Shown here: in pieces, positions 1-64,000 of the stretch
Layout of the letters: each line of letters opens with the position of its first letter
Position numbering within the stretch: position 1 is the first letter of the stretch
Assembly: GCF_015277895.1 (NCBI RefSeq)
Contig: NZ_CP063815.1
Location: 1,426,001 to 1,490,000 of the forward strand
From: Microbacterium abyssi
GTDB lineage: Bacteria; Actinomycetota; Actinomycetes; Actinomycetales; Microbacteriaceae
Direction of reading: 5' to 3'
Length of the DNA: 64,000 bases
Notes under the pieces: model-generated
What the model saw: only the letters and a program-made list of their open reading frames with translations
Told to the model about the DNA's origin: nothing
Databases searched by the model: none
Position numbers and translations under genes: made by a program

Positions 1-96
1 CTCGTCGGTCAGCGCCGTCGCCTGCTCGGCTACCTTCAGGGTGTGGACATCGAGCGCTACCGCTCGCTGATCCAGCGCCTCGGACTGCGGCGATAA
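1..96 (+). CDS. rpsO: 30S ribosomal protein S15, C-terminal end (partial)
   Basis: The last 31 codons and TAA stop of the S15 gene; the beginning lies before the window. The visible peptide contains [10 protein letters not shown] and ends RLGLRR, the conserved S15 C-terminus. S15 is a primary binder of the 16S rRNA central domain. In most bacteria rpsO is followed directly by pnp; here pnp starts 8.4 kb downstream and a strong hairpin ends this transcript about 100 bases after the stop. Confidence 0.95.
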
Positions 97-193
97 GCCG
101 CAGGACGCAAAAGGCACAGTCTGAAGTGGATCGGCGCACGCCGATCCGAGTCGCCGATAACGACCAGCGTTCAATCGCGCGAAACTTTCTTGG

Positions 194-222
194 AAGGCCT
201 CCCCACGGTGTGGGGAGGCCTT
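194..222. terminator. Bidirectional hairpin terminator between rpsO and the DUF488 gene
   Basis: A perfect 12-bp stem (AAGGCCTCCCCA / TGGGGAGGCCTT) with a 5-base loop sits between two convergent genes. A-rich and T-rich ends on the stem let it act in both directions. The right arm touches the stop codon of the DUF488 gene. Confidence 0.85.
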
Positions 223-761
223 CATCGTTCCCGCTCAGTCGAGTACGTGACGGTGTCGCCGTCGACGACGGCCCCCGTCGTGAGCTCGGCCGGTTGCAGC
301 CGCCCCTCGCCCATCAGGTGGAACACCGCCTCGCCTCGTGCGACCAGATGATCAGCGATGATGCGCCGGTGGCATCGCCACCAGACCGCCTCCGAGCACA
401 TGACGGTCGTGCGCAACTCGCGCCCGCGATCGAGCAGCCTGTCCAGGCCCGAACGGAACTCATCCGAGAGCGCATGGTCGGCGTAGTTGTGAAAGCTGCG
501 GTTCTGCCAGAACGCGTTCGTCTCGAACGGCACCTCCTTCGAAACCGGCCGGCGGCCCCCGAGCTCCGCGATGCGCTCGAACCGGATGCCGGTGGCGCCG
601 AGCGATTCGCGCAGCGAGTCCTCGTCGAACTGCGGATGCCGCCGGGAGCCGGGGAGCCTGCGCACATCCACGACCAGGCCGATCTGGGCAGACGTCAGCA
701 CCGAGATGAACTCATCGATCGAGCGGTCCGAGTGTCCGACGGTGTGAAACGGCAGCGACAT
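222..761 (-). CDS. DUF488 family protein
   Basis: A 179-residue protein of the DUF488 family, whose biochemical role is unknown. The hallmark HTVGHS motif lies at residues 6-11, and the conserved C-x-E-x(5)-CHR-x(2)-IA block (CSEAVWWRCHRRIIADHL) lies in the C-terminal third; the cysteines and histidine suggest a metal or catalytic site, which is inference. Length is normal for the family. The ATG is preceded at 6 bases by a TAGCCT -10 box, so a leaderless transcript is likely. It is convergent to rpsO and codirectional with the oxygenase gene upstream, but has its own promoter. Confidence 0.85.
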   Translation of the reverse strand: MSLPFHTVGHSDRSIDEFISVLTSAQIGLVVDVRRLPGSRRHPQFDEDSLRESLGATGIRFERIAELGGRRPVSKEVPFETNAFWQNRSFHNYADHALSDEFRSGLDRLLDRGRELRTTVMCSEAVWWRCHRRIIADHLVARGEAVFHLMGEGRLQPAELTTGAVVDGDTVTYSTERER

Positions 762-767
762 CCGTCG

Positions 768-773
768 AGGCTA
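768..773 (-). promoter_or_regulatory. -10 box of a leaderless promoter for the DUF488 gene
   Basis: TAGCCT read on the minus strand, 6 bases before the ATG at 761. Transcription would start at or next to the start codon. Confidence 0.6.
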
Positions 774-789
774 CCTGGGAAGCCCGGGC

Positions 790-1794: not shown

Positions 1795-1800
1795 GCCCCG

Positions 1801-1806
1801 AGCGTA
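1801..1806 (-). promoter_or_regulatory. -10 box of a leaderless promoter for the oxygenase gene
   Basis: TACGCT on the minus strand, 6 bases before the ATG at 1794. It shares the 73-base divergent region with the promoter at 1856. Confidence 0.6.
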
Positions 1807-1855
1807 CGGCGAGATTCCACGGCGGCAGTCGAGTGTTTCGAAGATTTACCGTCGG

Positions 1856-1861
1856 TAGCCT
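1856..1861 (+). promoter_or_regulatory. -10 box of a leaderless promoter for the small membrane protein gene
   Basis: TAGCCT, 6 bases before the ATG at 1868, back to back with the oxygenase promoter. Confidence 0.6.
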
Positions 1862-1867
1862 GAAATC

Positions 1868-2323: not shown

Positions 2324-2330
2324 CATTCGG

Positions 2331-3464: not shown

Positions 3465-3470
3465 CATTGA

Positions 3471-3476
3471 AGGCTA
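3471..3476 (-). promoter_or_regulatory. -10 box for the acyltransferase gene
   Basis: TAGCCT on the minus strand, 6 bases from the second of two tandem ATG codons and 3 from the first; this spacing favours the second. Confidence 0.55.
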
Positions 3477-3507
3477 CCGTCCGGGAATAAAGTTGAGGGG
3501 GTGGCGT

Positions 3508-3520
3508 TGTATCAGATACA
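3508..3520. promoter_or_regulatory. Palindromic operator candidate upstream of the monooxygenase pair
   Basis: TGTATC-A-GATACA is a perfect 6-bp inverted repeat around one base, in the 113-base divergent region between the acyltransferase and monooxygenase genes. A further GATAC lies 11 bases downstream at 3533-3537. The A+T-rich palindrome stands out in this GC-rich DNA. It is most likely a repressor site; no regulator gene is adjacent. Confidence 0.5.
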
Positions 3521-3577
3521 TTCAAGTGCATAGATACGGATGCCACCGCATCCGCCTCGAGAACCCGGAGCACCAAC

Positions 3578-4804: not shown

Positions 4805-4806
4805 CC

Positions 4807-5451
4807 ATGCCAGAGCGTCGCATCGCGGTCATCTCCGCTGGGCTCTCCAACCCGTCATCGACCAGGATGCTGGCCGACAAACTGGCAGCCGAGACGGTCA
4901 AAGAGCTTGCTGCCCGCGACATCCAGGCCACGGTCGACCTCATCGAGCTGCGCGATCTCGCGCACGACATCACCAACAATCTGCTCACCGGCTTCGCGCC
5001 GGCGGAGCTGGAGTCGGCGCTCAACTCGGTCTACTCCGCCGATGCCCTGATCGCGGTGACCCCGATCTTCTCGACCAGTTACTCCGGACTCTTCAAGTCG
5101 TTCATCGATGTGCTCGACCCGGACGCTCTGACCGGCAAGCCGGTCCTCATCGGCGCGAACGCGGGCACGCCGCGACACTCTCTCGCGATCGACTACGCGA
5201 TCCGACCGCTGTTCGCCTACCTGCATGCCGAGGCCGTCTCGACCGGCGTGTTCGCGGCATCCGGTGACTGGGGCGGCGCTGGTGACGACGTGGCTCCCCT
5301 GAGCAAGCGCGTCGAGAAGGGCGCGCGCGAGTTGGCCGAGGCCGTCGCGCGCAACGACGCCGTCACATCGAACGATCCGTTCGACCCGGCGAACTACCTC
5401 GGCGAGGGCCGCTCGTTCGGACACCTGCTGGGTGGCCTCGCCGGCGAGTGA
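4807..5451 (+). CDS. NAD(P)H-dependent FMN reductase (CE1759-type)
   Basis: A 214-residue flavodoxin-like FMN reductase. The N-terminal AVISAGLSNPSSTRMLADKL is the FMN-phosphate loop, VTPIFSTSYSGLFKSFID is the flavin-contacting segment, and IGANAGTPRHSLAIDYAIRPLF follows as in the CE1759 family. It would supply FMNH2 to the monooxygenase encoded 2 bases upstream. The ATG at 4807 is preceded by AAGGAGG with good spacing, which fixes the start although the frame is open further upstream. A strong hairpin follows the stop. Confidence 0.88.
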   Translation: MPERRIAVISAGLSNPSSTRMLADKLAAETVKELAARDIQATVDLIELRDLAHDITNNLLTGFAPAELESALNSVYSADALIAVTPIFSTSYSGLFKSFIDVLDPDALTGKPVLIGANAGTPRHSLAIDYAIRPLFAYLHAEAVSTGVFAASGDWGGAGDDVAPLSKRVEKGARELAEAVARNDAVTSNDPFDPANYLGEGRSFGHLLGGLAGE

Positions 5452-5465
5452 CACGCACCGAAGAC

Positions 5466-5498
5466 GAAGGCGCCGGACCCGAAGGGGCCGGCGCCTTC
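5466..5498. terminator. Hairpin terminator after the monooxygenase/reductase pair
   Basis: An 11-bp perfect stem (GAAGGCGCCGG / CCGGCGCCTTC) between convergent genes, likely active in both directions. Confidence 0.8.
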
Positions 5499-5505
5499 TC
5501 GATGA

Positions 5506-5685
5506 TCAACCGCTCTTGCGTCGGAACTCGCGCCGCGTCTGCGGGGCGTTCACCGCGTGGACGGCGGAGTCGCCATCCAGGTGCGACTCACCGTCGCGAT
5601 GGTGAGCGTTCTTCTTCTCGAGCGCTTCCTTGAACTTGCGCTTCATGTCCTCAGACGGAGGAACTGCGCCTTCTTCGGTGCTCAT
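5506..5685 (-). CDS. DUF5302 family small protein
   Basis: A 59-residue, strongly charged, cysteine-free protein beginning MSTEEGAVPPSEDMKRKFKEALEKK and ending REFRRKSG. It matches the actinobacterial DUF5302 family, whose members are small, mostly disordered proteins of unknown function. It has a lysine-rich helix in the first half (SEDMKRKFKEALEKK) and a basic tail. TAGGCT lies 6 bases before the ATG, giving a leaderless start. It lies between two convergent units and is codirectional with the DedA gene. Confidence 0.8.
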   Translation of the reverse strand: MSTEEGAVPPSEDMKRKFKEALEKKNAHHRDGESHLDGDSAVHAVNAPQTRREFRRKSG

Positions 5686-5691
5686 GGGGTC

Positions 5692-5697
5692 AGCCTA
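5692..5697 (-). promoter_or_regulatory. -10 box of a leaderless promoter for the DUF5302 gene
   Basis: TAGGCT on the minus strand, 6 bases before the ATG at 5685; it overlaps the DedA gene stop region, so the small gene has its own start of transcription. Confidence 0.55.
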
Positions 5698-6315
5698 GTC
5701 GGGCTGCACCGGTGACGGAAAGGTCGCGCGCCTGCGGTCGCGTCGCCGGATCAGCAGGTCGATCAGCGTGCCGATGACGAGGGCGACCACGACCGACACC
5801 GTGATCGCCACCATCGGTCCGCCGGGGAGGATCGCCGCGAACAGGGCCCCGACCGCCGCTTGGTAGGTCGCCCAGCCGGCCGCGGCCAATGCGACCAGAC
5901 CGGCGTAGCGCGGGATCGGAATCCGAGTCGCGCCGGCGACGAGATTCACGGCGAGCCGCGCGAACGGGATGAAGCGCGCGGTGAACAGCACCACTGCAGT
6001 GCCGGACTGCAGGCGGTCGTGCGCCCAGCGCCGTGCCTGCTGCACGCGCTGGGCGCGCATCCAACGCCAGCGCTCCACGCCTGCCCAGCGTCCGATCGCG
6101 TAGCAGAGCATGTCACCGCACGCGGCGGCGACGGTCGCACAGGCGATCACGGCCCACAGCGGGGGAGTCCCGGACGAGATCGACAGCGCTCCGAGCGCCG
6201 TCACCGCGATCTCGCCGGGCACGATGACGAAGAACGCGTCGCCGACGACGAGGACCGTCATGACGATCAGCGCCCATGGGCCATGGACGGCGTCGAGGAC
6301 CGCGTCGGGAATCAC
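5695..6315 (-). CDS. DedA family membrane protein
   Basis: A 206-residue DedA/SNARE-associated family protein, a group involved in lipid carrier flipping and membrane homeostasis. Seen here: an N-terminal helix, the re-entrant segment IVPGEIAVTALGALS with the family glutamate, the CGDMLCYAIGRWAG block, the FTARFIPFARLAVNLVAGATRI block with the two conserved arginines, and two C-terminal helices. It starts with GTG at 6315; the sequence before it is divergent from the glycosyltransferase fusion gene. Confidence 0.85.
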   Translation of the reverse strand: MIPDAVLDAVHGPWALIVMTVLVVGDAFFVIVPGEIAVTALGALSISSGTPPLWAVIACATVAAACGDMLCYAIGRWAGVERWRWMRAQRVQQARRWAHDRLQSGTAVVLFTARFIPFARLAVNLVAGATRIPIPRYAGLVALAAAGWATYQAAVGALFAAILPGGPMVAITVSVVVALVIGTLIDLLIRRRDRRRATFPSPVQPD

Positions 6316-6455
6316 CCCTTCACGATGCGCCCGCGAAGTGAACGGAAACCGAATCGGGGACAGCCGGTGAAGGAAAGCCGTGCAACGGGTGAACTCTCGG
6401 TCCCTTGAGCCCGTCGCGGCTCAAGACATCCACGGACGCGGGGCATCCTGACATC

Positions 6456-8396
6456 GTGAGAGTCGCGATCGTGACCGAATCCTTCCTGCCGCACATGAAC
6501 GGTGTGACCGGATCTGTGCTGCAGATCCTTCGACACCTCGAACGGACCGGCCACGATGCCCACGTGATCGCTCCGGGAGCCGCTGGCATCCCGGGCACGA
6601 TGCACGGCGCATCGATCGAGCCGGTGATGAGCCTGGCGCTCCCCGGGTATCGCAACGTTCGCGTCGGCACCGTCACCGCGCACCGCATCGCGGAGTCGCT
6701 GTCGAGCTTCCGGCCCGACGTCGTGCACCTCGCATCCCCGTTCGCGCTGGGCTGGCGCGGCGTGCTCGCCGCCACGCGCCTCGCGCTTCCGGTCGTGGCG
6801 GCATACCAGACGGACGTCGCCGCCTATACAGAGCGGTATCGCGTCGCGGCCACCACGAACTTCGCTCAGAACCACATCCTGCGCCTGCACCGGCGTGCGA
6901 CCCTGACGCTCGCGCCATCCTCCGAGTCGGAGCAGCAGCTTCACGGGCTCGGGGTGGACCGGATCCGCCGGTGGGGCCGCGGCGTGGATGCGGAGCGCTT
7001 CCACCCCGGCGCTCGCGTCGAGCAGTGGCAGCATCGCTCACCGGATGAGATCGTGGTCGGCTACGTCGGGCGACTGGCCGCCGAGAAGCAGATCGAGGAT
7101 CTCCGCGTGCTGCACGGGATTCCCGGCATCCGCCTCGTCATCGTCGGCGACGGTCCGTCCCGTCCTCGCCTCGCGGCCCAGATGCCGGATGCCGTGTTCC
7201 TCGGCCACCTCGACGGGGACGAGCTCGCCGCCGCGATGGCATCCTTCGACATCTTCGTGCATCCGGGCGAGAGCGAGACGTTCGGGCAGACGCTGCAGGA
7301 GGCGCACGCCAGCGGGGTCCCGATCGTGGCGACCGGTCGCGGCGGCCCGCTGGATCTGATCCGGATGGGCATCGACGGCTGGCTGTATCGCCCCGGAGAC
7401 CTGGATGACCTGCGGATGCGCGTCATGGATCTCGCAGGCGACGCGCGCAAGCGCCGGGCGTTCGGCGCGGCGGGGCGCAGGGCGGTCGAGGGGCGCAGCT
7501 GGCAGGCCGTCTGCGATCAGCTGATCGGCCACTTCGAGGAGGCGCGCGAGCTCCAGCGGGTGGATCGCGCGCTGCGCGCACCACGGGTGCGCAGGCCCGA
7601 GCCGTCGCATCCCGGCGCCGGCCGACGGTGGCAGCGTTTCGTCGCCCTCGGCGACTCGCTCACTGAGGGTCTCTGCGACCCGGCGCCGGACGGGGCGCTG
7701 CGCGGGTGGGCGGATCGACTCGCCCTGCTGCTGTCGGCCAGGGGCGGCATCCACTATGCGAACCTCGCGGTCCGATCGCGTCGCGTGCGGGACGTGCGCG
7801 GCGCGCAGCTCGCGCGAGCCAGGGACCTCAGGCCGGACCTGGTGTCGATCCTGATCGGCGCGAACGATCTCGTGAGGTCGCACGCGGACGTTGCTGCGCT
7901 CGCTGCCGAGGTCGAGGAGACGGTTCGCGTACTGCGCGATGACGGCGCCGACGTGCTGCTGGTGACGCCGTTCCTGCCCGACCGCCGGGCGGCGGGGCTG
8001 TTCGCGGCGCGGTTCTCCACGTTCGCGGTCCACCTCGCCGGCATCGCCGAGCGGCACGGTGCGATCCTCCTCGACACCGACCTGCACCCTGCGCTGGCGT
8101 CCAGACCGAACTGGGGCGAGGACCTGGTGCACCTCGGCAGCAGAGGACATCGTTTCCTCGCGTATCGCGCCGGCGAGCTCCTCGGAGTGCCGCACGCCGA
8201 GACACTCGGCGCGCTCGATCAGGTGCTGCACGACGTGGACGCCACCACCAAAGCGCAATGGTGGCGCGAGCACGCCCTCCCCTGGGTATGGCGCCGGATG
8301 CGCGGGCGCGTCGCGGGTGACGGGCGCGTCGCCAAGCACGACGAGTACGTCTACATCGGCCGGTCGTCCAGCATGCGCAGCGTCGAAGTCGGCTGA
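6456..8396 (+). CDS. Fusion protein: GT4 glycosyltransferase + SGNH hydrolase
   Basis: A 646-residue two-domain protein. Residues 1 to about 370 are a GT4 glycosyltransferase of the MgtA/PimB type: RVAIVTESFLPHMNGV at the start, a GYVGRLAAEKQIEDL strand, and ESETFGQTLQEAHASGVPIVAT (E-x7-E) near 271. From about 392 an SGNH/GDSL hydrolase follows: GDSLTEG (block I), IGANDL (block III) and EDLVHLG (block V, Asp/His). A linker rich in Arg and Pro joins them. No signal peptide is seen, so it is probably cytoplasmic; it could glycosylate and acylate or deacylate one lipid or glycan. The GTG start at 6456 puts the first beta strand at the terminus; an earlier TTG at 6405 is less likely. Confidence 0.88.
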   Translation: MRVAIVTESFLPHMNGVTGSVLQILRHLERTGHDAHVIAPGAAGIPGTMHGASIEPVMSLALPGYRNVRVGTVTAHRIAESLSSFRPDVVHLASPFALGWRGVLAATRLALPVVAAYQTDVAAYTERYRVAATTNFAQNHILRLHRRATLTLAPSSESEQQLHGLGVDRIRRWGRGVDAERFHPGARVEQWQHRSPDEIVVGYVGRLAAEKQIEDLRVLHGIPGIRLVIVGDGPSRPRLAAQMPDAVFLGHLDGDELAAAMASFDIFVHPGESETFGQTLQEAHASGVPIVATGRGGPLDLIRMGIDGWLYRPGDLDDLRMRVMDLAGDARKRRAFGAAGRRAVEGRSWQAVCDQLIGHFEEARELQRVDRALRAPRVRRPEPSHPGAGRRWQRFVALGDSLTEGLCDPAPDGALRGWADRLALLLSARGGIHYANLAVRSRRVRDVRGAQLARARDLRPDLVSILIGANDLVRSHADVAALAAEVEETVRVLRDDGADVLLVTPFLPDRRAAGLFAARFSTFAVHLAGIAERHGAILLDTDLHPALASRPNWGEDLVHLGSRGHRFLAYRAGELLGVPHAETLGALDQVLHDVDATTKAQWWREHALPWVWRRMRGRVAGDGRVAKHDEYVYIGRSSSMRSVEVG

Positions 8397-8423
8397 CACC
8401 GGAGAAGTCCAGCGCCGCGCTGA

Positions 8424-8429
8424 TAGGCT
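8424..8429 (+). promoter_or_regulatory. Candidate -10 box for pnp with a long leader
   Basis: TAGGCT about 105 bases before the pnp start. A second candidate, TATGAT, lies at 8480-8485. No good -35 is evident for either, so the choice is uncertain. Confidence 0.35.
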
Positions 8430-8455
8430 GAAACTGGATTGCTGTGCGCAGTCCG

Positions 8456-8473
8456 CGTGCGCGCATGCGCACG
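8456..8473 (+). promoter_or_regulatory. Hairpin in the pnp leader
   Basis: CGTGCGC-GCAT-GCGCACG forms a perfect 7-bp stem with a 4-base loop inside the region upstream of pnp. In enterobacteria PNPase controls its own message through a leader hairpin cut by RNase III; whether this stem does the same is inference. Confidence 0.45.
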
Positions 8474-8534
8474 GGTACGTATGATCTCGGCCGTCACACG
8501 GACGGACGAGTCTAAACAAAGAAGGAGAGACCTC

Positions 8535-13439: not shown

Positions 13440-13879
13440 TGGCCCGCGCCGGGGTGATCGTCGTCGGGCTCTGCCTGATCCTGTACTTCGTCCTCACCGG
13501 ACAGTGGGCGTATCTCTACGTGACCAGCGGTGAGGCCATCGGGATCGCCATGGGTGCGGCTCTCATCGTGTTGCCGCTGATCGGGGCATGGGCCCTCGTT
13601 CGCGAGATCGAGTTCGGCATTCAGGCGGACCGTCTCGGCACGAAGCTGGATGCCGAGGGCGGCATGCCAACCGCGGAGGCCGAACTCACCCCGAGCGGCC
13701 GGCTCGCCAAGACGGATGCCGAGCCGCTTGTGCAGCGCTACACGGCCGAGGCCGATGCCGCCGGCGACGACTGGCGGGCACGCTACCGGCTCGGTGTGGT
13801 GCAGGATGCCGCGGGGCGCCGTAAAGACGCTCGCGCCAGCATCCGCGACGCGATCCGGCTCGCGAAGAACGCGAGCTGA
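13436..13879 (+). CDS. Membrane protein with a short helical-repeat C-terminus, function unknown
   Basis: A 147-residue protein with two membrane helices (about residues 5-22 and 33-57) and a soluble C-terminal part. The end, YTAEADAAGDDWRARYRLGVVQDAAGRRKDARASIRDAIRL, resembles a tetratricopeptide-type helix pair. Its ATG overlaps the dapB stop, so it is in the dapB operon. I do not recognise a function. Three copies of GGATGCC fall within this short gene. Confidence 0.75.
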   Translation: MMARAGVIVVGLCLILYFVLTGQWAYLYVTSGEAIGIAMGAALIVLPLIGAWALVREIEFGIQADRLGTKLDAEGGMPTAEAELTPSGRLAKTDAEPLVQRYTAEADAAGDDWRARYRLGVVQDAAGRRKDARASIRDAIRLAKNAS

Positions 13880-16770: not shown

Positions 16771-17531
16771 TGCCGACCGCGCTGATCACGGGGGCGAGTG
16801 CGGGTCTCGGCGAGGAGTTCGCCCGTCAGCTCGCCGCACGAGGAGCCGACCTGGTGCTGGTCGCGCGGTCGGCCGAACGGCTCGACGCGCTGGCCGTCGG
16901 ACTGCGAGACGCACACGGCGTCTCAGTCGAGGTGCTCGCCGCGGATCTCGTCACAGAAGACGGCGTGGCGCGTGTGATCGCACGGGTCGCCGATCAGGAG
17001 CATCCGATCGGCCTCCTGGTCAACAATGCGGGGTTCGGGTTGCCGCTGCACTTCGCCGATAACGACATCGACGACGAGGTGCAGCACCTGCGCATCCACG
17101 TCGAGGCGCCGATGCGGCTCATGCACGCGGCGCTGGGCAGCATGCGCGGACGCGGCGGACGGATCATCAACGTGGCATCCGTCGCCGGGTTCATCTCCCG
17201 CTCGACGTACTCCGCGTGCAAGCAGTGGCTGATCGGCTTCAGCCGGTGGGCGAATGCCGAGTACGCGAAGGACGGCGTCAGCGTCACCGCGGTGTGCCCC
17301 GGCTTCACCCACACCACGTTCCACGAGCGGATGGGCCTCGCACCAGGCCGCGAGGGGATCCCCGCGATCGGGTGGCTGAATGCACCGGACGTCGTGCGAG
17401 AGGGCCTGCGGGATGCCGCGCGCGGCAAGGCCGTCTCCGTCCCCTCGCTGCGCTACAAGGCGGTCGTCGCGCTGACGAAGGTGCTCCCCTCATCGCTCAC
17501 CGCACGCGCAGCGCAGCGCGGAAGGGTCTGA
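16770..17531 (+). CDS. SDR family NAD(P)-dependent oxidoreductase
   Basis: A 253-residue classical short-chain dehydrogenase. TGASAGLGEEFA (residues 7-18) is the cofactor loop, NNAG is at 85-88, and the catalytic triad reads S137, Y147 and K151 (STYSACK). The segment GFSRWANAEYAKDGVSVTAVCPGFTHT is typical of the DltE/YqjQ-like group. The substrate is unknown. The ATG overlaps the folA stop by one base, so it is translated with the folate genes, although no functional link is evident. Confidence 0.88.
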   Translation: MPTALITGASAGLGEEFARQLAARGADLVLVARSAERLDALAVGLRDAHGVSVEVLAADLVTEDGVARVIARVADQEHPIGLLVNNAGFGLPLHFADNDIDDEVQHLRIHVEAPMRLMHAALGSMRGRGGRIINVASVAGFISRSTYSACKQWLIGFSRWANAEYAKDGVSVTAVCPGFTHTTFHERMGLAPGREGIPAIGWLNAPDVVREGLRDAARGKAVSVPSLRYKAVVALTKVLPSSLTARAAQRGRV

Positions 17532-18196: not shown

Positions 18197-19174
18197 ATGA
18201 CACACTCGGGCAACCCCTTCGGACAGGTACTCGTCGCGCTCGTCACTCCGATGACGGCCGACGGCGAAGTCGACTGGGCCGCCACAGAGAAGCACATCGA
18301 TGACGTCATCACCGCAGGAGCGGACGGCATCGTCGTCACCGGTACGACGGGGGAGACCTCCACTCTCACCGACCCCGAGAAGCTCAAGCTCGTCGAGGTC
18401 GGCAAGTCGGTCTCGGCCGGGCGAGCCAGGATCATCACCGGCGGCGGCTCCAACGAGACCGCGCATGCCATCGAGTTGTACAAGGCCAGCGAGAAGGCCG
18501 GCGCCGACGGCATCATGATCGTCACGCCGTACTACAACAAGCCGACGCAGGCCGGCATCCTCACGCACTTCCGCCTCGTCGCCGACGCGACCGATCTGCC
18601 CGTGATCCTCTACGACATCCCGGGCCGGACCGGAGTGCCGATCAAGTACGAGACGATCCTGCGCCTGGCGAAGCACCCGAACATCCTCGCGGTGAAGGAC
18701 GCCAAGGGCGACTTCAGCGAGGTCAGCCGCGTGCTGAACCAGACCGACCTGATGTACTTCTCCGGCGACGACGCGAATGTCCTCCCTCACCTGTCGATCG
18801 GTGCCTCCGGTCTCATCGGCGTGACCGCGAACATCACCGCGACGCCGTACCGCACGATCGTGGATGCCGTCAACCGCGGCGACCTCGCCACGGCCACCGC
18901 CGAGCACAAACGCCTCGAGCCGCTGGTGCGGGCCACCATGACACACGTGCCCGGAACCGTGTCGGCGAAGTACATCCTGCACGGCCTGGGCCGCATCTCA
19001 AGCCCCCGCGTCCGCCTTCCCCTGGTGGGCCCGGAGGAGTGGGAGGCCGCGCTCATCGAAGACGAGCTCGCGCTAGTCACGGACGTGCCCGGTGCCGATT
19101 TCTCGAACTTCCGCCCCGACCGCAACGCGGCCGCGGGCGGTGCGCTGCCGAAGGTGCACGGCACGACGCGCTGA
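18197..19174 (+). CDS. dapA: 4-hydroxy-tetrahydrodipicolinate synthase
   Basis: A 325-residue DapA, condensing pyruvate with aspartate semialdehyde, the step before DapB. The Schiff-base lysine is K167 (ILAVKDAKGD); the Tyr/Thr relay is seen in GTTGETSTL (T50, T51) and VILYDIPGRTG (Y139), and VTPYYNKPTQ holds the interface tyrosines. The C-terminus is somewhat longer than in E. coli. The gene is leaderless by its -10 box. RNase J follows after 66 bases with its own ribosome site, and the dapA-RNase J pairing is common in actinobacteria. Confidence 0.96.
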   Translation: MTHSGNPFGQVLVALVTPMTADGEVDWAATEKHIDDVITAGADGIVVTGTTGETSTLTDPEKLKLVEVGKSVSAGRARIITGGGSNETAHAIELYKASEKAGADGIMIVTPYYNKPTQAGILTHFRLVADATDLPVILYDIPGRTGVPIKYETILRLAKHPNILAVKDAKGDFSEVSRVLNQTDLMYFSGDDANVLPHLSIGASGLIGVTANITATPYRTIVDAVNRGDLATATAEHKRLEPLVRATMTHVPGTVSAKYILHGLGRISSPRVRLPLVGPEEWEAALIEDELALVTDVPGADFSNFRPDRNAAAGGALPKVHGTTR

Positions 19175-20977: not shown

Positions 20978-23698
20978 ATGGCCAGGAGCACCACGAAGAC
21001 CTCGCGCGCGTCCGAGAAGACGTCCTCGCGTGCCAAGGCGCAGACGGCCCCCACGAAGAAGATCCCGGCGGCGCCGAAGAAGTACATCGACGAGGTCGAC
21101 AGGCCTCCGCTCGTGGCGCGTGCCTGGACAGGACTCGCGCACGGCGTCGGCGGCCTGTTCCGGGCGTTCGGCCCCGAGGCGCTCGAGAAGGACCAGCGGC
21201 GCGACGGATTCCCGTTCCTGCTCGTGATCCTCGCGTGCCTCGGCGCAGTCGACGAGTGGTTCTTCATCGGCAACGAGGTCGCGCAGAACATCAGCGCCTA
21301 CACCGTAGGCGGTCTCATCGGCCGCACGGCGTTCCTCATGCCCGTGCTGCTGCTGATCCTCGCCGGCTGGCTGTTCCGGCATCCCTCATCCGTGCACGAC
21401 AACGGGCGCATCGGCATCGGCTTCGGACTGTTCGTCGTCTCGATCGCCGGCATCTGCCATGTCGCGGGCGGCCAGCCCGAGCCGAATCAGGGCATGCCGG
21501 CGCTCAGCGCCGCGGGCGGGCTCTTCGGCTGGATGCTGGGGGAGCCGCTGTCGTACCTCACCGATGTGGTGGCCTACATCGTGCTCGTGTTGCTGGCTGT
21601 GCTGAGCATCCTGATCATCACCAAGACGCCGCCGAACAAGATCGGTCCGCGTCTGGGTGACCTGTACGCGTGGATGTTCGGCGCAGAGCGCAGCAAGCCC
21701 GAGTCGCAGCCGGCCGCAGAGGACGCCGAGGAGGAGTCCGACGATTCGCTGCCGTGGTGGCGGCGCAACAAGACCGGTCGCGAAGAGGATCCCGACGAAG
21801 GGATCGGCTCCCAGGATCTCACCGAGCTTCTCGCCCCGACGGACGATGTTCCCGACAACACCGCCTACGACCAGGCGGTCATCCTCGCCGACCCGTCGGA
21901 TGCTGCGACCGAGGTCCTCACCGATGTCGAGGGCGTCATGGCCGGTCTCGCAGGTCGCGGCAGCACGGCGCTCATGGACGACTCCGGCGACACAGGCGAG
22001 CAGCCCGAACTGCCAGGGCTGTCCGGCTTCGGCACCGACGGTCCCGGCGATCGCGGCCTGCAGGCGCCCAGCACGCCCTATGTGCTTCCCTCCACTGCCG
22101 TCCTCCGCGAGGGGCCGCCGCCGGTCATCCGTTCCGACGCCACGGATCGGGTCATCGAACAGATCACGGGCGTATTCACGCAGTTCAAGGTCGATGCGAA
22201 GGTTACCGGCTTCTCACGCGGTCCGACGGTGACCCAGTACGAGGTCGAAGTCGGCCACGGCGTCAAGGTCGAGAAGATCACGCAGCTGAGCAACAACATC
22301 GCCTATGCGGTGGCATCCAACGATGTGCGCATCCTCTCGCCGATCCCCGGCAAGAGCGCGATCGGCATCGAAATCCCGAACGCCGACAAGGAGATGGTCG
22401 CGCTCGGCGACGTGCTGCGTTCGCCCGCAGCCCAGAAGAGCACCCACCCGATGACGATCGGTGTCGGAAAGGACGTCGGCGGCAACATCGTCGTCGCGAA
22501 CCTCGCGAAGATGCCGCACCTGCTGGTGGCGGGTTCGACCGGATCCGGTAAGTCGAGCTTCGTGAACTCCATGATCACGAGCCTGCTGATGCGTGCCCGT
22601 CCAGCAGATGTGCGCATGGTCCTGATCGACCCGAAGCGCGTCGAGCTCACCAGCTACGCCGGCGTCCCGCACCTGATCACCCCTATCATCACCAACCCGA
22701 AGAAGGCCGCGGAGGCCCTGCAGTGGGTGGTGAAGGAGATGGACATGCGGTACGACGACCTGGCGTCGTTCGGATTCCGTCACATCGACGACTTCAACAA
22801 GGCCGTGCGCGCCGGCGAGGTCGAGGTGCCGGTCGGCAGCGAGCGCGTGCTCAAGCCGTATCCGTACCTCCTCGTGGTCGTGGACGAGCTCGCCGACCTC
22901 ATGATGGTCGCGCCACGAGACGTCGAGGATTCGATCGTCCGCATCACGCAGCTGGCCCGAGCGTCCGGCATTCACCTCGTGCTGGCCACGCAGCGCCCGA
23001 GCGTCGACGTCGTCACCGGACTCATCAAGGCCAACGTGCCCTCGCGCCTCGCGTTCGCGGTCACGAGCGTCACCGACAGCCGCGTCATCCTCGACGCACC
23101 CGGTGCCGACAAGCTGATCGGCCAGGGTGACGCCCTGTTCTCGCCGATGGGCACGTCCAAGCCGTTCCGACTGCAGGGTGCATGGGTCGAGGAGAGCGAG
23201 ATCGACGCCGTCGTCAAGCACGTCACGGCGCAGGCCCGCCCCGAGTACCGCGCCGACGTGCAGGAGGCGATGGATCCGGCGAAGAAGAAGGAAGTCGACG
23301 AGGACATCGGCGACGACCTCGAGGTGCTGCTCGCGGCCGCCGAGCTCGTCGTGTCGTCGCAGTTCGGGTCGACCTCGATGCTGCAGCGCAAGCTGCGCGT
23401 CGGGTTCGCCAAGGCGGGTCGGCTGATGGACCTCCTCGAATCCCGCGAGATCGTCGGGCCCTCCGAGGGATCCAAGGCGCGTGACGTGCTGGTGACGGCC
23501 GAACAGCTGCCGGCCGTGATGGCGAAGCTCCGCGGCGAGGACGCTCCGTCCGCCCCGGCGGCGGCAGCCCCGGCAGCAGCGGCTCCGGCGTCCGTCGACT
23601 ACGGACGCGATCCGATCGAGGCGCAGTTCGAGGGGATGCCGGTCGTCGACGAGGGTGAGGGCGATGAAGACGCCTGGGGCCTGACGGGTCGCGACTGA
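20978..23698 (+). CDS. ftsK: DNA translocase FtsK/SpoIIIE
   Basis: A 906-residue septal DNA translocase. A lysine-rich N-terminus is followed by four membrane helices (about residues 65-210), an acidic linker (to about 385), the alpha/beta motor with Walker [10 protein letters not shown] near 520 and Walker [11 protein letters not shown] near 632, and a C-terminal winged-helix gamma domain ([26 protein letters not shown]) that reads orientation sequences. An Ala/Pro stretch (about 852-870) follows. I start at ATG 20978, not GTG 20972, because of the -10 spacing. The stop overlaps the pgsA start. Confidence 0.95.
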
Positions 23699-33631: not shown

Positions 33632-35137
33632 ATGACGAAGACCACAGACGACACCCACGGCGACGAGACCCTCGATCGCGTGCTCGCCAGCGCAGAGAAG
33701 CGCACCGAACCGAGAGTCTTCGGTGCAGCGCAGGCGCTGCAGGCCACGGCGACTGCCGCGTACGGCGATCGCGACGGCGACCAGTGGGATCTCGAGGACC
33801 GCCACGCGCTGCGCCGCGTCGCCGGACTCTCCACCGAACTCGAAGATGTCACAGAGGTCGAGTACCGCCAGCTGCGACTCGAGAACGTCGTGCTGGCGGG
33901 CGTGTACCCGCAGGGCGCGCAGACGGATGCCGAGAACTCGCTGCGCGAGCTCGCCGCCCTCGCTGAGACGGCCGGAGCAGTCGTGCTCGACGGCGTGCTG
34001 CAGCGCCGTCCGCATCCCGATCCGGCCACTTATCTCGGCCGCGGCAAGGCCCAGGAACTGAAGGATCTCGTCGCCGCGACCGGCGCCGACACCGTGATCG
34101 CCGATGCCGAGCTCGCGCCCAGCCAGCGACGTGCGCTCGAGGACGTCGTCAAGGTCAAGGTGATCGACCGGACGACCGTCATCCTCGACATCTTCAGCCA
34201 GCACGCCAAGAGTCGTGAGGGCAAGGCGCAGGTCGAGCTCGCACAGCTCGAGTACCTGCTGCCGCGCCTGCGCGGCTGGGGTGACTCGATGAGCCGTCAG
34301 GCCGGTGGCCAGGTCGGTGCCGGCGGTGCGGGTATGGGTTCGCGCGGTCCCGGTGAGACGAAGATCGAACTCGATCGGCGCCGCATCCGCACTCGCATGG
34401 CGATGCTGCGCCGGCAGATCCGCGACTTCGCGCCGGCGCGAGACGCCAAGCGTGCGGAGCGCAAGCGGAACACCATCCCGTCGGTCGCGATCGCCGGGTA
34501 CACCAACGCCGGCAAGTCGAGTCTGCTCAATGCGCTCACGAGCGCGGGGGTGCTGGTCGAGAACGCGCTGTTCGCGACGCTGGATGCCACGGTCCGCCGC
34601 TCCGAGACGACCGACGGCCGCGTCTACACGTTCACCGACACCGTCGGATTCGTGCGGAACCTGCCGCATCAGCTCGTCGAGGCGTTCCGCTCGACGCTCG
34701 AAGAGGTCGCCGACGCCGACATCGTGCTGCACGTGGTCGACGGATCACACCCCGACCCCGCCGGTCAGCTGCAGACGGTCCGTGACGTGATGGGCGATGT
34801 CGGAGCGCGCGATCTGCCCGAGATCGTGGTGTTCAACAAGGCCGACCTGATCGCAGAAGACGACCGCCTGGTGCTGCAGGGTCTCGAGCCCCACGCCCAC
34901 TTCGTGTCATCGCGCTCCGGTGAGGGGATCGAGGAGTTGCGTGCGGCTATCGACGTCGCACTGCCCAAACCCGCCGTCGAGGTGCGTGCACTCGTGCCGT
35001 ACGGCCGGGGAGACCTGGTCGCGGCGGTGCACGAGACCGGCATCCTGGTGTCGGCGGAGCACGGCGAGCACGGCACTGAGATCCACGCGCACGTCTCGGA
35101 GCGTCTGGCCGCGGATCTCGCGCCCTTCGCGCACTGA
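33632..35137 (+). CDS. hflX: GTPase HflX
   Basis: A 501-residue ribosome-associated GTPase that splits stalled or inactive ribosomes. The N-terminal domain runs to about 215 (DAENSLRELAALAETAGAVV and PDPATYLGRGKAQEL), then a glycine-rich loop (GGQVGAGGAGMGSRGPGE) and helices, and the G domain with P-loop GYTNAGKSS near 289, DTVGFVRNLPH and FNKADL. It is about 70 residues longer at the N-terminus than E. coli HflX. AGAGG precedes the ATG. Confidence 0.93.
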   Translation: MTKTTDDTHGDETLDRVLASAEKRTEPRVFGAAQALQATATAAYGDRDGDQWDLEDRHALRRVAGLSTELEDVTEVEYRQLRLENVVLAGVYPQGAQTDAENSLRELAALAETAGAVVLDGVLQRRPHPDPATYLGRGKAQELKDLVAATGADTVIADAELAPSQRRALEDVVKVKVIDRTTVILDIFSQHAKSREGKAQVELAQLEYLLPRLRGWGDSMSRQAGGQVGAGGAGMGSRGPGETKIELDRRRIRTRMAMLRRQIRDFAPARDAKRAERKRNTIPSVAIAGYTNAGKSSLLNALTSAGVLVENALFATLDATVRRSETTDGRVYTFTDTVGFVRNLPHQLVEAFRSTLEEVADADIVLHVVDGSHPDPAGQLQTVRDVMGDVGARDLPEIVVFNKADLIAEDDRLVLQGLEPHAHFVSSRSGEGIEELRAAIDVALPKPAVEVRALVPYGRGDLVAAVHETGILVSAEHGEHGTEIHAHVSERLAADLAPFAH

Positions 35138-35159
35138 TTCCGGATGCCGCGCCGGGGTG

Positions 35160-52751: not shown

Positions 52752-52912
52752 CCGGCATCCGTTCCCGCACGCGTAAGGCCTGGAAACACTCAGCGAGGAT
52801 CGCTAGGATCGACGCGGCGCGTGAGCGCTTGAAGCTGTGTATCTACCGGCCGTCGGCATCCCGACGGAAAGCGGCGGCACCTGATCCCGCGCCGTTCGGG
52901 CGCGCGAGAGCC

Positions 52913-55613: not shown

Positions 55614-55691
55614 CAGACCGTCATGCGTGAGATCGGGGTCGCGCACGCGTGAGAGGCTGGTCGAGAATCGACCCCGACGAGGAGACCCGCT

Positions 55692-56492: not shown

Positions 56493-56498
56493 GCCGTC

Positions 56499-58217
56499 AT
56501 GTCCTCGCAAGATCCTTCTTCGAACGCGCCCATCGACATCAAGCCCCGCAGCCGCGTCGTCACCGACGGCATCGAGGCCACGACTTCCCGAGGCATGCTC
56601 CGTGCCGTCGGGATGGGTGATGAGGACTGGGACAAGCCGCAGATCGGCATCGCGTCCAGCTGGAACGAGATCACGCCCTGCAACCTGAGCCTCGACCGGC
56701 TCGCGCAGGGTGCGAAGGAGGGCGTGCACTCGGGCGGTGGCTACCCGCTGCAGTTCGGCACCATCTCGGTCTCGGACGGCATCTCGATGGGCCACGAGGG
56801 GATGCACTTCTCGCTCGTGTCGCGCGAGGTCATCGCCGACTCGGTCGAGACCGTCATGATGGCCGAGCGCCTCGACGGCAGCGTGCTGCTGGCCGGCTGC
56901 GACAAGTCGATCCCCGGGATGCTGATGGCCAGTGCGCGCCTCGATCTCTCCAGCGTCTTCCTCTACGCCGGCTCCATCGCACCGGGATGGGTGAAGCTCT
57001 CGGACGGCACCGAGAAGGACGTCACCATCATCGACTCCTTCGAGGCCGTCGGCGCCTGCCGTGCGGGTCTCATGAGTGAAGAGGACCTCAAGCGCATCGA
57101 GTGCGCGATCGCTCCTGGCGAAGGCGCGTGCGGCGGCATGTACACCGCGAACACGATGGCATCCGTCGCCGAGGCCCTCGGTCTCAGCCTGCCCGGCTCC
57201 GCCGCCCCGCCGGCGGCTGACCGCCGCCGCGACTACTTCGCCCACCGCTCCGGCGAGGCCGTCGTGAATCTGCTGCGTCAGGGGATCACGACCCGCGACA
57301 TCCTCACCAGGGAGGCCTTCGAGAACGCGATCGCCCTGGCCATGGCCCTCGGCGGTTCGACGAACGTCGTGCTGCACCTGCTCGCCATCGCCCGCGAGGC
57401 CGATGTCGAACTGAGCCTGCACGACTTCAACCGCATCGGCGACAGGGTGCCGCACGTCGCCGATATGAAGCCCTTCGGCAAGTACGTCATGAACGACGTC
57501 GACCGCCATGGCGGCATCCCCGTGATCATGAAGGCCATGCTCGACGAGGGCCTGCTGCACGGCGACGCCCTCACCGTCACCGGCAAGACGCTCGCCGAGA
57601 ACCTCGCGGACCTCGACCCGCAGCCGATCGACGGCGAGGTCATCCATACCTTCGACAACCCGATCCACGCCACCGGCGGCCTCACGATCCTGCATGGATC
57701 GCTTGCCCCCGAAGGCGCGGTCGTGAAGACCGCCGGCTTCGACGCCACCGTGTTCGAGGGCCCCGCGCGGGTCTTCGAGCGCGAGCGCGCCGCGATGGAT
57801 GCCGTCGCGAACGGTGAGATCAACGCCGGCGAGGTCATCGTCATCCGCTACGAGGGTCCCAAGGGCGGACCGGGCATGCGCGAGATGCTCGCGATCACCG
57901 CTGCCATCAAGGGCGCGGGGCTCGGAAAAGATGTACTACTCTTGACGGACGGACGATTCTCAGGCGGCACAACCGGCCTGTGCATCGGCCACATAGCACC
58001 CGAAGCGGTGGACGCTGGTCCCATCGCCTTCGTGCGCGATGGTGATCTGATACGGGTCGATATCGCAGCTCGCTCTCTTGACTTACTCGTCGACGAGGCA
58101 GAGCTCGCCTCCCGCCGCTCTGGCTGGGAGCCGCTTCCCCCGCGCTATACCCGTGGCGTTCTTGCCAAGTACTCGCGACTCGTGCGCTCCGCTGCGGAGG
58201 GTGCGACGACCGGATGA
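56499..58217 (+). CDS. ilvD: Dihydroxy-acid dehydratase
   Basis: A 572-residue iron-sulphur dehydratase, third step in valine and isoleucine synthesis. The cluster cysteines are C61 (NEITPCN), C134 (LAGCDKS) and C211 ([11 protein letters not shown]). [20 protein letters not shown] near the C-terminus is the family signature. The last about 97 codons (from 57923) use CTA, TTA, TTG, ATA and GTA codons that are absent before, so the 3' end looks like another origin; the protein stays in frame. ilvB follows after 42 bases. Confidence 0.95.
57923..58217 (+). other. ilvD: Segment of ilvD with foreign-looking codon use
   Basis: About 295 bases at the ilvD 3' end have lower G+C and carry CTA, TTA, TTG, GTA and two ATA codons within 97 codons. 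I see no CTA, TTA or ATA codons in the preceding 470 codons of the same gene. The encoded protein keeps the family signature. Recombination with an ilvD allele from a lower-GC relative would explain it. Confidence 0.5.
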
Positions 58218-58259
58218 TGCTTTCGTCTTCCGACGACATTCAGATCACCAAGGAATGAC

Positions 58260-61642
<3,383 letters not shown>

Positions 61643-61657
61643 CGCCGACATCGTTGA

Positions 61658-61685
61658 GAAAGGGCGCCCCTCGGGGCGCCCTTTC
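61658..61685 (+). terminator. Terminator after ilvC
   Basis: GAAAGGGCGCCCC / GGGGCGCCCTTTC, a 13-bp perfect stem with a tight loop. Confidence 0.85.
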
Positions 61686-61712
61686 GCGTCGGAGCGGTCC
61701 GTGGCGACCCTT

Positions 61713-61727
61713 AGACATCCGATGTCT
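61713..61727. promoter_or_regulatory. Operator candidate upstream of the fucosidase gene
   Basis: AGACATC-C-GATGTCT is a perfect 7-bp inverted repeat centred 45 bases before the fucosidase start codon, in the promoter zone. The protein that binds it is unknown; the convergent ROK regulator is a candidate. Confidence 0.6.
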
Positions 61728-61764
61728 GTGCCAGGATGGAGACTGATCCAGAGAAAGGTGCGGC

Positions 61765-63030
61765 ATGCGGCAGCAGTGGTTCGACGAGGCGCGATTCGGG
61801 TTGTTCGTCCATTTCGGGCTGTACAGCGCGGCAGCGCGTCACGAATGGGTGCAGAACTACGAGCGCCTCACCGACGACGACTATCGGCAGTACTTCGAGA
61901 ACTTCGATCCCGACCTCTTCGATGCGCGGGCGATCGCGCGTCGGGCCAGGAACACCGGTATGGGGTACGTCGTACTGACCACGAAGCATCACGACGGTTT
62001 CGCGCTCTGGGACTCGGGGCTCACCGACTTCACGTCACAGACCGCGTGCGGCCGCGACCTGGTGCGCGAGTACGTCGACGCGCTCCGTGCAGAGGGTCTC
62101 AAGGTAGGTCTCTACCACTCGGTGATCGACTGGCACCATCCGGATTTCACCGTCGACTGGAACCACCCGCGCCGTGACGACGAGAATGCTCACGAGCTCA
62201 ACGCGGGGCGCGACATGGCTCGCTACCGCGCCTACCTGCACGGTCAGGTGCGCGAGTTGCTGACCGGCTACGGCGAGATCGACTACCTGTTCTTCGACTT
62301 CACGTACCCGGAGGCCAAGAACGGCTGGGAGGGCAAAGGACCGGAGGACTGGGATGCCGACGCGCTGCTGGCGATGTGCCGGGAGCTGCAGCCGGGGATG
62401 CTCGTGAACGACCGGCTGGGCATTCCCGCCGACTTCGTCACGCCCGAGCAGTATCAGCCGACGTCGCGGCTCGTGGAGGACGGCGTTCCAGTGGTCTGGG
62501 AGGCGTGCCAGACGCTCAACGGATCCTGGGGCTACCACCGCGACAACACCGACCAGAAGTCGGCGGTGCTGCTCGCGCAGATGCTCGTCGATTCCGTGTC
62601 GATGGATGGGAACATGCTGCTGAACATCGGTCCCGACGGCCGCGGTGCGATCGCTCCACGCGACGCCGCGACGCTCGGCGAGCTCGGCGAGTGGATGCGT
62701 CTTCACCGGGATTCCGTCATCGGTGCGGGGCATGCCTCGTTCACGCCGCCTCGAGAAGGCGTCTACACGCGCCGCGGCGACCGGGTGTACCTGCACCTCT
62801 TCAGCTGGCCGCTCGGTTACGTGCACCTTCCCGATCTCGCGGGACGTGTGCGCTATGCGCGCCTGCTCAATGACGGCTCGTGGCTGAAGACGTCCGTGTC
62901 CGACCCGGAACAGCAGGCGACGCTCATGACTCCGGCCGGCGAGGCGGAGGGCACCCTGACGGTGCACCTGCCGGTGCGACGACCGGACGTCCTGATGCCG
63001 GTCGTCGAGCTCACGCTGAAGGACGACTAG
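61765..63030 (+). CDS. Alpha-L-fucosidase, GH29
   Basis: A 421-residue GH29 glycosidase releasing L-fucose. WFDEARFGLFVHFGLYSAAARHEWVQ and LTTKHHDGFALWDS are the barrel's first strands with the fucose-binding His residues; the nucleophile is D178 in YGEIDYLFFDFTYPEA. NMLLNIGPDGRGAI precedes a C-terminal beta-sandwich. No signal peptide, so it acts on fucosides that have been imported. The ROK gene converges on it with 21 bases between the stops. Confidence 0.9.
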   Translation: MRQQWFDEARFGLFVHFGLYSAAARHEWVQNYERLTDDDYRQYFENFDPDLFDARAIARRARNTGMGYVVLTTKHHDGFALWDSGLTDFTSQTACGRDLVREYVDALRAEGLKVGLYHSVIDWHHPDFTVDWNHPRRDDENAHELNAGRDMARYRAYLHGQVRELLTGYGEIDYLFFDFTYPEAKNGWEGKGPEDWDADALLAMCRELQPGMLVNDRLGIPADFVTPEQYQPTSRLVEDGVPVVWEACQTLNGSWGYHRDNTDQKSAVLLAQMLVDSVSMDGNMLLNIGPDGRGAIAPRDAATLGELGEWMRLHRDSVIGAGHASFTPPREGVYTRRGDRVYLHLFSWPLGYVHLPDLAGRVRYARLLNDGSWLKTSVSDPEQQATLMTPAGEAEGTLTVHLPVRRPDVLMPVVELTLKDD

Positions 63031-63051
63031 GCGGAATCGTCGGTGGCCGTC

Positions 63052-64000
63052 TCAACCGGCGGCCACCGGCAGCTCGATCTGCTCGAGCGCCATGCGCGCC
63101 GCACCGTGCAGGATCGCATCCGCACCGGTGGCCGCCGCCTCGATGCGCAGCCGCTGCGTGGCCAGCGGGTGGCAGGCTTCGTACACGCGGCTGCGCACGG
63201 CGGCGATGAACGGCTCCGAGGCGCTCATGCTCCCGGTGAGGAAGACGGCATCGGGGTTGAAGAAGTTGACGACTCCGGAGAGGGCCTGTCCGAGATGCGT
63301 TCCTGCCGTCCGGACGAGAGTCGTCGCCTCCGGGTCGGCGTCGCGGGCGAGCGCCAGCACGTCGGCGATGGTGCCGACGTCCGTGTGGCCCCGCTCATGC
63401 ATCTGGCGCACCAGGCTCGCCCCACTGGCGACCGTCTCGAGGCATCCGGTGTTGCCGCAGGAGCAGGGGAGGTCGCCGCTGCCGTCGATTCGCGTGTGAG
63501 TGATGTCGCCGGCTGCACCGGTCGCACCGCGATGCACATGCCCGTCGACCACGATCCCGCTGCCGATGGCGGTGCCGGCCTTGACGGTGATGCTGTGGCG
63601 GGCGTATCCGAACTGCTCGCGATGCTCGCCCAGTGCTGCGAGGTTGGCGTCGTTGTCCACGGCCACTCCCGCCCCGTACCGCTCGTGCAGATACTCGCGG
63701 ACGGGGAAGCCGGGCCATCCGGGCATGCGTGACGGCTGATCGACAGTGCCCGCCGCGATGTCCACCGGGCCGGGCAGGCTCACTCCGACCGCTCTGAGGA
63801 CCTCGTCCCCGATGAGACGGTCCAGCACCTCGCCGACGCGATTCAGGGTCCGTTCCGGGCCCTCGGTGAGATCGACCGAGATCGTCTGCGAGTTCAGCAG
63901 GGCGCCGCTGAGCGAATGGCGTCCGATCAGAGCGTGCCGGCCACCGAGATCGACGGTGAGGATGATCCCGGCGAAGGCGGGCACGCGCAGGACGCGAGGG
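63052..64000 (-). CDS. ROK family transcriptional regulator (partial, start outside window)
   Basis: At least 316 residues of a ROK protein, open beyond the window edge. Visible are the ATP-type loop TVDLGGRHALIG, SLPGPVD, AVDNDANLAALGEHREQFGYARHSITVKAGTAIGSGIVVDGHVHRGATGAAGDITH, and the zinc motif PCSCGNTGCLE. The frame continues upstream of the GTG at 63984 (RPRVLR), so an N-terminal DNA-binding part is expected outside the window. It likely regulates sugar genes, perhaps the fucosidase next to it. Confidence 0.87.
   Translation of the reverse strand, partial: PRVLRVPAFAGIILTVDLGGRHALIGRHSLSGALLNSQTISVDLTEGPERTLNRVGEVLDRLIGDEVLRAVGVSLPGPVDIAAGTVDQPSRMPGWPGFPVREYLHERYGAGVAVDNDANLAALGEHREQFGYARHSITVKAGTAIGSGIVVDGHVHRGATGAAGDITHTRIDGSGDLPCSCGNTGCLETVASGASLVRQMHERGHTDVGTIADVLALARDADPEATTLVRTAGTHLGQALSGVVNFFNPDAVFLTGSMSASEPFIAAVRSRVYEACHPLATQRLRIEAAATGADAILHGAARMALEQIELPVAAG

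Follow-up and report, generated by a model that had tools for sequence, protein, structure and literature searches.

To our knowledge, tags by which bacteria recognize and take up DNA of their own kind have been described to date in two Gram-negative families, and a case in the Actinomycetota would, if true, be the third independent one. Here we analysed the heptamer GGATGCC (GGCATCC on the opposite strand), which is strongly over-represented in a 64,000-nucleotide stretch of Microbacterium abyssi (contig NZ_CP063815.1; hereafter the window), namely bases 1,426,001-1,490,000 of its single 3,267,287-base chromosome (genome G000), and which, with a probability of roughly 0.6, serves as a DNA uptake sequence, that is, a self-recognition tag for natural transformation that would be the first in a Gram-positive lineage. 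The DNA uptake sequences (DUS) of the Neisseriaceae form family-wide dialects with an invariant core CTG, two of which rarely occur together (PMC3630211), they are read by the protein ComP (PMC3868556) and they are scarce in surface-variable and accessory genes (PMC5031613). The word of M. abyssi resembles them in its thousands of copies per genome, in its dialects with a fixed core (GGAT instead of CTG) that are rarely found together, in its enriched near-matches and genic copies, and in its scarcity in surface-variable and accessory genes. It differs from DUS in that its sequence and phylum are unrelated, its length is 8-9 rather than 10-12 bases, it switches within one genus, and its hosts are monoderm cells with Flp/Tad pili and not type IVa pili. 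With the uptake signal sequence (USS) of the Pasteurellaceae it shares a high copy number, the lack of orientation bias, uneven spacing and a drive-like profile of near-matches (PMC1939737), although the USS has a different sequence and Gram-negative hosts, and its uptake preference has been demonstrated, whereas the putative tag described here is predicted from genome sequence.

The original prediction had put the word at about 98 copies in the window (about 44 and 54 on the two strands) against about 15 expected, and the exact count is 99, with 45 on the forward strand and 54 on the reverse strand as GGCATCC. Dinucleotide shuffles of the window held a mean of 15.9 and a maximum of 24 copies (100 shuffles), and the third-order Markov expectation of 22.1 gives an observed-to-expected ratio of 4.5. 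By our gene calls, 39 of these copies are genic sense, 50 genic antisense and 10 outside genes. The whole chromosome carries 2,578 + 2,605 = 5,183 copies, one per about 630 bases, against 142 + 132 of the reversed word. An 864-kb sample (forty 20-kb stretches round the chromosome together with the window) holds 1,354 copies, and its 825 called genes carry the heptamer 1,253 times against 412 after synonymous codons were shuffled within each gene (30 shuffles, standard deviation 15.7), which is a 3.0-fold excess with protein sequence and codon usage kept constant; the third-order Markov ratio on 800 kb of the genome is 4.0. Both ratios, obtained on large samples rather than on the whole genome, lie above the two-fold level that the original prediction had named as its limit.

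Compared with the codon-shuffled genes, the word ranks at the top for k = 7, 8 and 9, with the octamer GGATGCCG reaching 961 copies against 218 (4.4-fold, top of all 8-mers) and the nonamer CGGATGCCG 418 against 72. The eighth base is G in 76% of 1,350 sites, beyond which the flanks mostly show a three-base rhythm only. Among the neighbours of the word, GGATGCTG (3.1-fold), GGATGCCA (3.1-fold) and GGATGCCT (2.4-fold) are enriched over codon shuffles, and GGATGCCC is not enriched in these genes. The enrichment of CGGATGCCG falls from 6.4-fold without mismatch to 1.7-fold at one and 1.0-fold at two mismatches; the one-mismatch values of six of seven control words were 1.15-1.34, and the seventh, CGGATCCCG, which is itself a near-match of the word, gave a comparable 1.63.

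The word also bends codon choice. Asp is written GAT in 24% of cases overall and in 84% (445/528) in the context NNG-Asp-GCC-G, compared with 25% before GCC when the preceding codon does not end in G, while Ala is written GCA in 10% of cases overall, in 73% (280/383) in G-GCA-TCC and in 71% (32/45) in A-GCA-TCC, the last of which lends support to T, besides C, as the seventh base of the word. A fuller notation, C-GGATGC-C/T-G/A/T, suits the word better than the bare heptamer of the original prediction, whose examples of codon choice were otherwise all confirmed. The Asp-Ala cases, written NNG GAT GCC G on the forward strand where GAC is usual, are CTG GAT GCC GAG (Leu-Asp-Ala-Glu) at 13648..13654, ACG GAT GCC GAG at 13714..13720 and again at 33925..33931, GTG GAT GCC GTC at 18862..18868 and GTG GAT GCC GCG at 59897..59903. 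The Ala-Ser cases, antisense copies written NNG GCA TCC with the uncommon GCA, are ATG GCA TCC TTC at 7238..7244, GTG GCA TCC GTC at 17174..17180, GTG GCA TCC AAC at 22312..22318 and ATG GCA TCC GTC at 57158..57164. Its three gap positions, 3538..3544 and 35142..35148 on the forward strand and 52754..52760 on the reverse strand, likewise lie outside called genes. Taken together, the excess over codon-shuffled genes and the context-bound codon flips bear out its view of a selected genomic word.

With regard to placement, the genic copies of the sample comprise 605 sense and 647 antisense, and function at the RNA level is disfavoured because these counts are near-equal. With the origin set at base 1, where DnaA-box-like sites are present, and the terminus opposite, 578 genic copies (46%) fall on the leading and 675 (54%) on the lagging side, so little polarity of the segregation or Chi type was found. 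The doubt that had been cast on a segregation motif stands by this test, although equal strand counts on a circular chromosome, from which that doubt had been argued, are not a sufficient argument. The word is without useful polarity and has the little strand, gene or replichore bias that is a trait of DUS and USS. The Markov excess is 4.1-fold in genes and 3.2-fold between genes, and even spacing was not found in the 864-kb sample (coefficient of variation 1.12, against 0.95 for random positions). Three copy-poor stretches (L024, L028 and L036), which were picked for their low density, show an excess of 1.4-fold against 3.2-fold in the rest, and their translations read as polysaccharide-synthesis or metal-resistance and element-like genes.

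GGATGCC is one dialect of a family-wide set of words around a GGAT core, which is described here as new. The ratio of GGATGCC to its reversed control is 2.8- to 25-fold in 59 genomes of the genus (M. abyssi included) and about 1.1- to 3.9-fold in 39 genomes from the order's other families, and across 160 genomes of the family GGATGCC ranges from no excess (genus g81, with 229 copies against 245 in G148) to 7,364 copies (G154). A search for the top word in samples of 40-100 kb from each of 28 other genomes (26 of them in the family), scored against whichever expectation was larger, codon-shuffled or Markov, revealed that genomes without GGATGCC excess often have other GGAT-core words, namely GGATCCG in G043 and G057, GGATGGC in G032, CCGGATG in G026, GGATCCT in G101 and CAGGATC in G144. 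As a calibration, the largest z score among 20 shuffled genomes was 4.1-4.4 (four genomes), and words at z up to about 6.3 were called tentative because the top heptamers of nine word-less genomes reach 3.5-6.3. Tentative dialects are GGATGCGG in G035, CGGATGCTG in G050, GCGGATC in G102 and G148, CAGGATC in G111 and GGATCC in G131 (z 9.6 against codon shuffles). The dialect CGGATCCG reads the same on both strands, so that its two-strand count may be up to twice the number of its sites.

Whole-genome counts under 40 handles (39 distinct, as the counts of G057 and G274 are identical) showed that GGATGCC and GGATCCG are mutually exclusive. The 19 GGATGCC genomes carry 3,484-7,364 copies of GGATGCC and 674-1,423 of GGATCCG, the 13 distinct GGATCCG genomes (G043, G057, G131, G256-G262 and G275-G277) carry 5,158-9,980 of GGATCCG and 454-1,441 of GGATGCC, and the remaining seven have other words or none. 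The same split between GGATGCC and GGATCCG loci emerged from codon-shuffled counts in a scan for Tad ATPase loci, of which the best 80 were kept (nearly all from Microbacterium, most about 20 kb); the M. gubbeenense locus, for instance, has 56 GGATCCG against about 8 expected and 3 GGATGCC against 5, and CCGGATG was seen in the loci of M. halophytorum and of a record named Frigoribacterium sp. JB110. In a tree of TopA proteins (85 rows), GGATCCG is strong in two separate clades, each with a support of 100 in the Shimodaira-Hasegawa-like approximate likelihood ratio test (SH-aLRT): clade A consists of M. nanhaiense, M. gubbeenense, M. indicum and M. sorbitolivorans, and clade B, made up of Microbacterium sp. 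8M, Au-Mic1 and five rows from metagenome-assembled genomes, is nested in a 45-row group whose other members have GGATGCC, a weak word or none. Weak GGATCCG labels occur elsewhere on the tree (L223, 9 against 4; L243, 11 against 4; L245, 15 against 7). Within topA, the sites of the two dialects are mostly at different positions, which speaks against conversion in place and indicates that a switch of dialect consists of loss and gain of sites.

Genes for a putative uptake machinery are present. M. abyssi has comEA-comEC (L051), and the Tad cluster before its topA encodes an ATPase, TadBC, a 65-amino-acid Flp-like protein matching DUF4244, a TadE minor pilin of the Rv3655c subfamily and a TadE-like protein of the Rv3654c family, while a second Tad cluster encodes three pseudopilin-like proteins. 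This set (ComEA/ComEC, Tad and pseudopilins) is the one used in transformation of Micrococcus luteus, for which two tad clusters are required and minor pilins are likewise used; the main text of that paper does not contain the terms 'uptake sequence' and 'sequence-specific' (PMC4322843). In addition, two other species, Rhodoluna lacicola and Aurantimicrobium photophilum, both of them Microbacteriaceae, are reported to be naturally transformable (PMC11577799).

Of the functions that the original prediction had left side by side (Chi-like, uptake-like, methylation or nucleoid-protein site), the uptake-like one is therefore favoured, short of proof, on account of the dialects, the palindromic dialect, the lack of polarity, the absence of RecC, the competence genes and the published transformation in the family; overall, the earlier reading of the word is partly supported. 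Under this model, competent cells would bind and import free DNA better when it is tagged, imported tagged fragments would recombine into the chromosome so that tagged alleles spread, and over time the tags would come to occupy genes and gaps in either orientation, as far as the encoded proteins permit. Among related species the tag would have shifted to other dialects round the GGAT core, resulting in species-biased uptake. On this inference, the word would exert its effect during uptake and be recognised by an exposed portion of the Flp (Tad) pilus.

Several observations weigh against an uptake tag. comEC was found in 60/60 genomes tested and the tad-1 ATPase family was matched in 37/37 (25 above the curated cut-off), genomes without a clear word included, and since both are present in every genome tested they are uninformative as predictors of the word. 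No clear GGAT word was seen in the samples of at least nine genomes of the family (G142, G132, G113, G121, G127, G156, G112, G114 and G217). Lesions of Tad-1, flagged by a coverage rule in 12 of 67 loci, several of them only just, did not go with a significantly weaker word (medians 2.43 against 2.62, p = 0.17). Finally, two Paopuvirus phages carry the word at about 2-fold, for which uptake offers no reason.

Regarding the lesions, the tad-1 pilus genes of five Microbacterium loci (L220, L222, L230, L193 and L205) look missing, truncated or frame-split, and four of these five clear cases, all except L205, are within the lowest 13 of the 67 word strengths in a post hoc comparison. In L240 (M. 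indicum), the frame of the Rv3654c-like protein of tad-1 runs on, as judged by eye, into sequence resembling an M23-type peptidase. The ATPase of the second tad cluster was not seen whole in several genomes and did not track with the word, in a comparison that scored part of the candidates, so that absence is unsure. With regard to the phages, the five of M. foliorum (141 kb) hold 74 genic copies against 44 expected, chiefly from the two small, related Paopuvirus (L268 and L269; 19 against 9 and 22 against 10 codon-shuffled, and far above the Markov expectations of 2.2 and 2.7), and phage Min1 of M. nematophilum holds 13 GGATGCC against 11 and 17 GGATCCG against 9. These phages are poorer in the word than the 3.0-fold of M. 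abyssi, yet not empty.

The switch in clade B offers a lead to the putative reader. The TopA identity to the remaining GGATGCC set is 0.878 for clade B and 0.875 for neighbouring GGATGCC lineages used as control, and because these distances are equal, other proteins can be compared between the two. Identities are 0.766 against 0.758 in the control for Tmk, 0.809 against 0.828 for Flp, 0.806 against 0.850 for HolB and 0.739 against 0.786 for TadA, but 0.555 against 0.672 for TadBC, 0.547 against 0.654 for TadE and 0.554 against 0.730 for the Rv3654c-like protein. Two pseudopilins of the second cluster gave 0.625 against 0.668 and 0.559 against 0.647, and the third was not recovered in clade B. 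The pilins of clades B and A are not more alike than expected (for TadE, B-A lies below S-A). This excess divergence is at most suggestive of Flp-pilus pseudopilins as candidate word readers, and is a lead rather than more because a single switch is involved, rapidly evolving proteins inflate such differences and the genes had been selected in advance. Here we speculate, as a possibility that we consider less likely than not, that the word belongs to a third self-recognition system, evolved in the Microbacteriaceae independently of those of Neisseriaceae and Pasteurellaceae and the first in monoderms, with a GGAT core and at least six dialects set by rapidly evolving pseudopilins of the Flp/Tad competence pilus, namely TadE and the TadE-like protein of the Rv3654c family, such that a changed pseudopilin specificity would rewrite thousands of sites.

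Among other explanations, a Chi-like recombination signal, at which an AdnAB-type helicase-nuclease would change its activity and thereby favour recombination of self-DNA, seems unlikely, although candidate enzymes are at hand: M. abyssi has two adjoining large frames with UvrD and PDDEXK_1 matches that resemble adnA-adnB, PDDEXK_1 matches occur in 26/26 genomes and the UvrD part of the AdnAB-like pair in 25/25. The length also suits the octamer of Chi (GCTGGTGG in Escherichia coli), another over-represented word that is denser in core than in acquired DNA; stretches that look acquired are likewise poor in the present word, matching what has been reported for Chi (PMC8022716). However, Chi is read by RecBCD, and RecC is absent from 33/33 genomes of the family tested; polarity, a defining trait of Chi in the same source (PMC8022716), is missing with 54% of copies on the lagging side, and the palindromic dialect CGGATCCG is directionless. 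Chi is, moreover, said to be well conserved among Enterobacteriaceae, in contrast to the present word with its switches inside a single genus, and the helicase part of AdnB shows little excess divergence at one such switch (mean identity to M. abyssi 75.9% in seven clade-B genomes against 79.7% in six controls). We likewise regard as unlikely that the word is the target of a widespread DNA modification by a fast-changing methyltransferase, maintained by epigenetic selection or by modification-linked mutation. The palindrome GGATCC inside GGATCCG would fit such a site, and the products of CG transition, GGATGCTG and GGATGCCA, are both enriched about 3-fold, which is compatible with a modified C, but GGATGCCT is enriched as well without being a transition product, the majority of dialects lack symmetry, and words linked to restriction are as a rule avoided and not enriched. 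HIP1 of cyanobacteria sets a precedent for an extreme excess of an octamer in and between genes, but it is a single palindrome, unlike the mostly asymmetric dialects here that change between close species.

That a nucleoid or chromosome-organising protein binds the word is improbable in our view, since the genome-wide spread and little polarity that a site of this kind would share with the word are set against uneven spacing, an intergenic excess that is not above the genic one, and repeated switching among close species. As for an origin of the word as a side effect of codon usage or mutational bias at 68% G+C, parts of the word do use common codons (GGC ATC), but this is refuted as a full account and very improbable given the excess that persists when protein sequence and codon usage are kept constant, with the top rank at k = 7, 8 and 9, the codon flip confined to its exact context, the 3.2-fold excess between genes, and the use of another word by close relatives of similar G+C.

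Among the open-access papers listed by our searches, none that we viewed reported this word or any uptake sequence from Actinobacteria, which is weak evidence of absence. If GGATGCC is indeed an uptake tag, the repeated dialect switches in one genus would allow the co-evolution of tag and reader to be studied and would predict which species exchange genes, and equipping DNA with the appropriate word might facilitate genetic work in many environmental Microbacteriaceae. Were the reader to prove intracellular, a rapidly switching word present at thousands of sites across the genome would still lack an explanation.

The exact copies of the window start, on the forward strand, at 584, 634, 2540, 2696, 3538, 7187, 12112, 13648, 13714, 13804, 15141, 16355, 17411, 17625, 18862, 19987, 20677, 23634, 24455, 25349, 28755, 29533, 32922, 33925, 34582, 35142, 36825, 37010, 38212, 41337, 43391, 46194, 46554, 47131, 51556, 51811, 53346, 55463, 57797, 59300, 59859, 59897, 60820, 61081 and 62352, and on the reverse strand (first base of GGCATCC) at 3602, 5256, 6442, 6585, 7125, 7238, 7746, 13344, 14994, 16735, 17174, 18554, 20477, 21378, 22312, 25134, 27221, 27427, 28429, 29360, 29655, 31585, 32142, 33438, 35039, 37251, 37704, 38571, 39842, 42475, 44000, 44162, 44273, 45471, 47826, 48161, 49208, 49482, 49987, 50736, 51361, 52754, 52855, 53590, 53633, 55041, 55787, 56121, 56307, 57158, 57513, 58502, 61052 and 63441.

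Other words were observed in the sampled genomes. In G107 (L078-L082, a 1.43-Mb genome), CACCGAT, followed by A or G, occurs 67 times against 19 codon-shuffled and is possibly a far dialect outside the GGAT core. Genus g81 (L053-L057 and L177 of G148; L103-L104 of G217) is unlike the other sampled genomes in that the tetramer GGAT is strongly depleted in its genes (223 against 469 and 85 against 208 in codon shuffles), perhaps an effect of restriction or drag, and G148 has GCGGATC 43 times against 7 by the Markov model. In G063 (L073-L077), of another family of the order, the palindrome CGACGTCG is found 62 times against 20 codon-shuffled; it is HIP1-like and unrelated to GGAT. G142 (L083-L087) has TATCGAGA and GATACGCC 27-28 times in 100 kb where about one or fewer would be expected; they are perhaps an intergenic repeat element since they are absent from the top coding words. 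Lastly, the 864 kb of M. abyssi contain 11 perfect inverted pairs GGATGCC-NN-GGCATCC (for instance at genome positions 165147, 490663 and 2615234), for which a terminator role was rejected as only 1/11 scored intergenic; almost all lie within genes, and at least 8 of the 11 form the 16-base palindrome GGATGCCGCGGCATCC.

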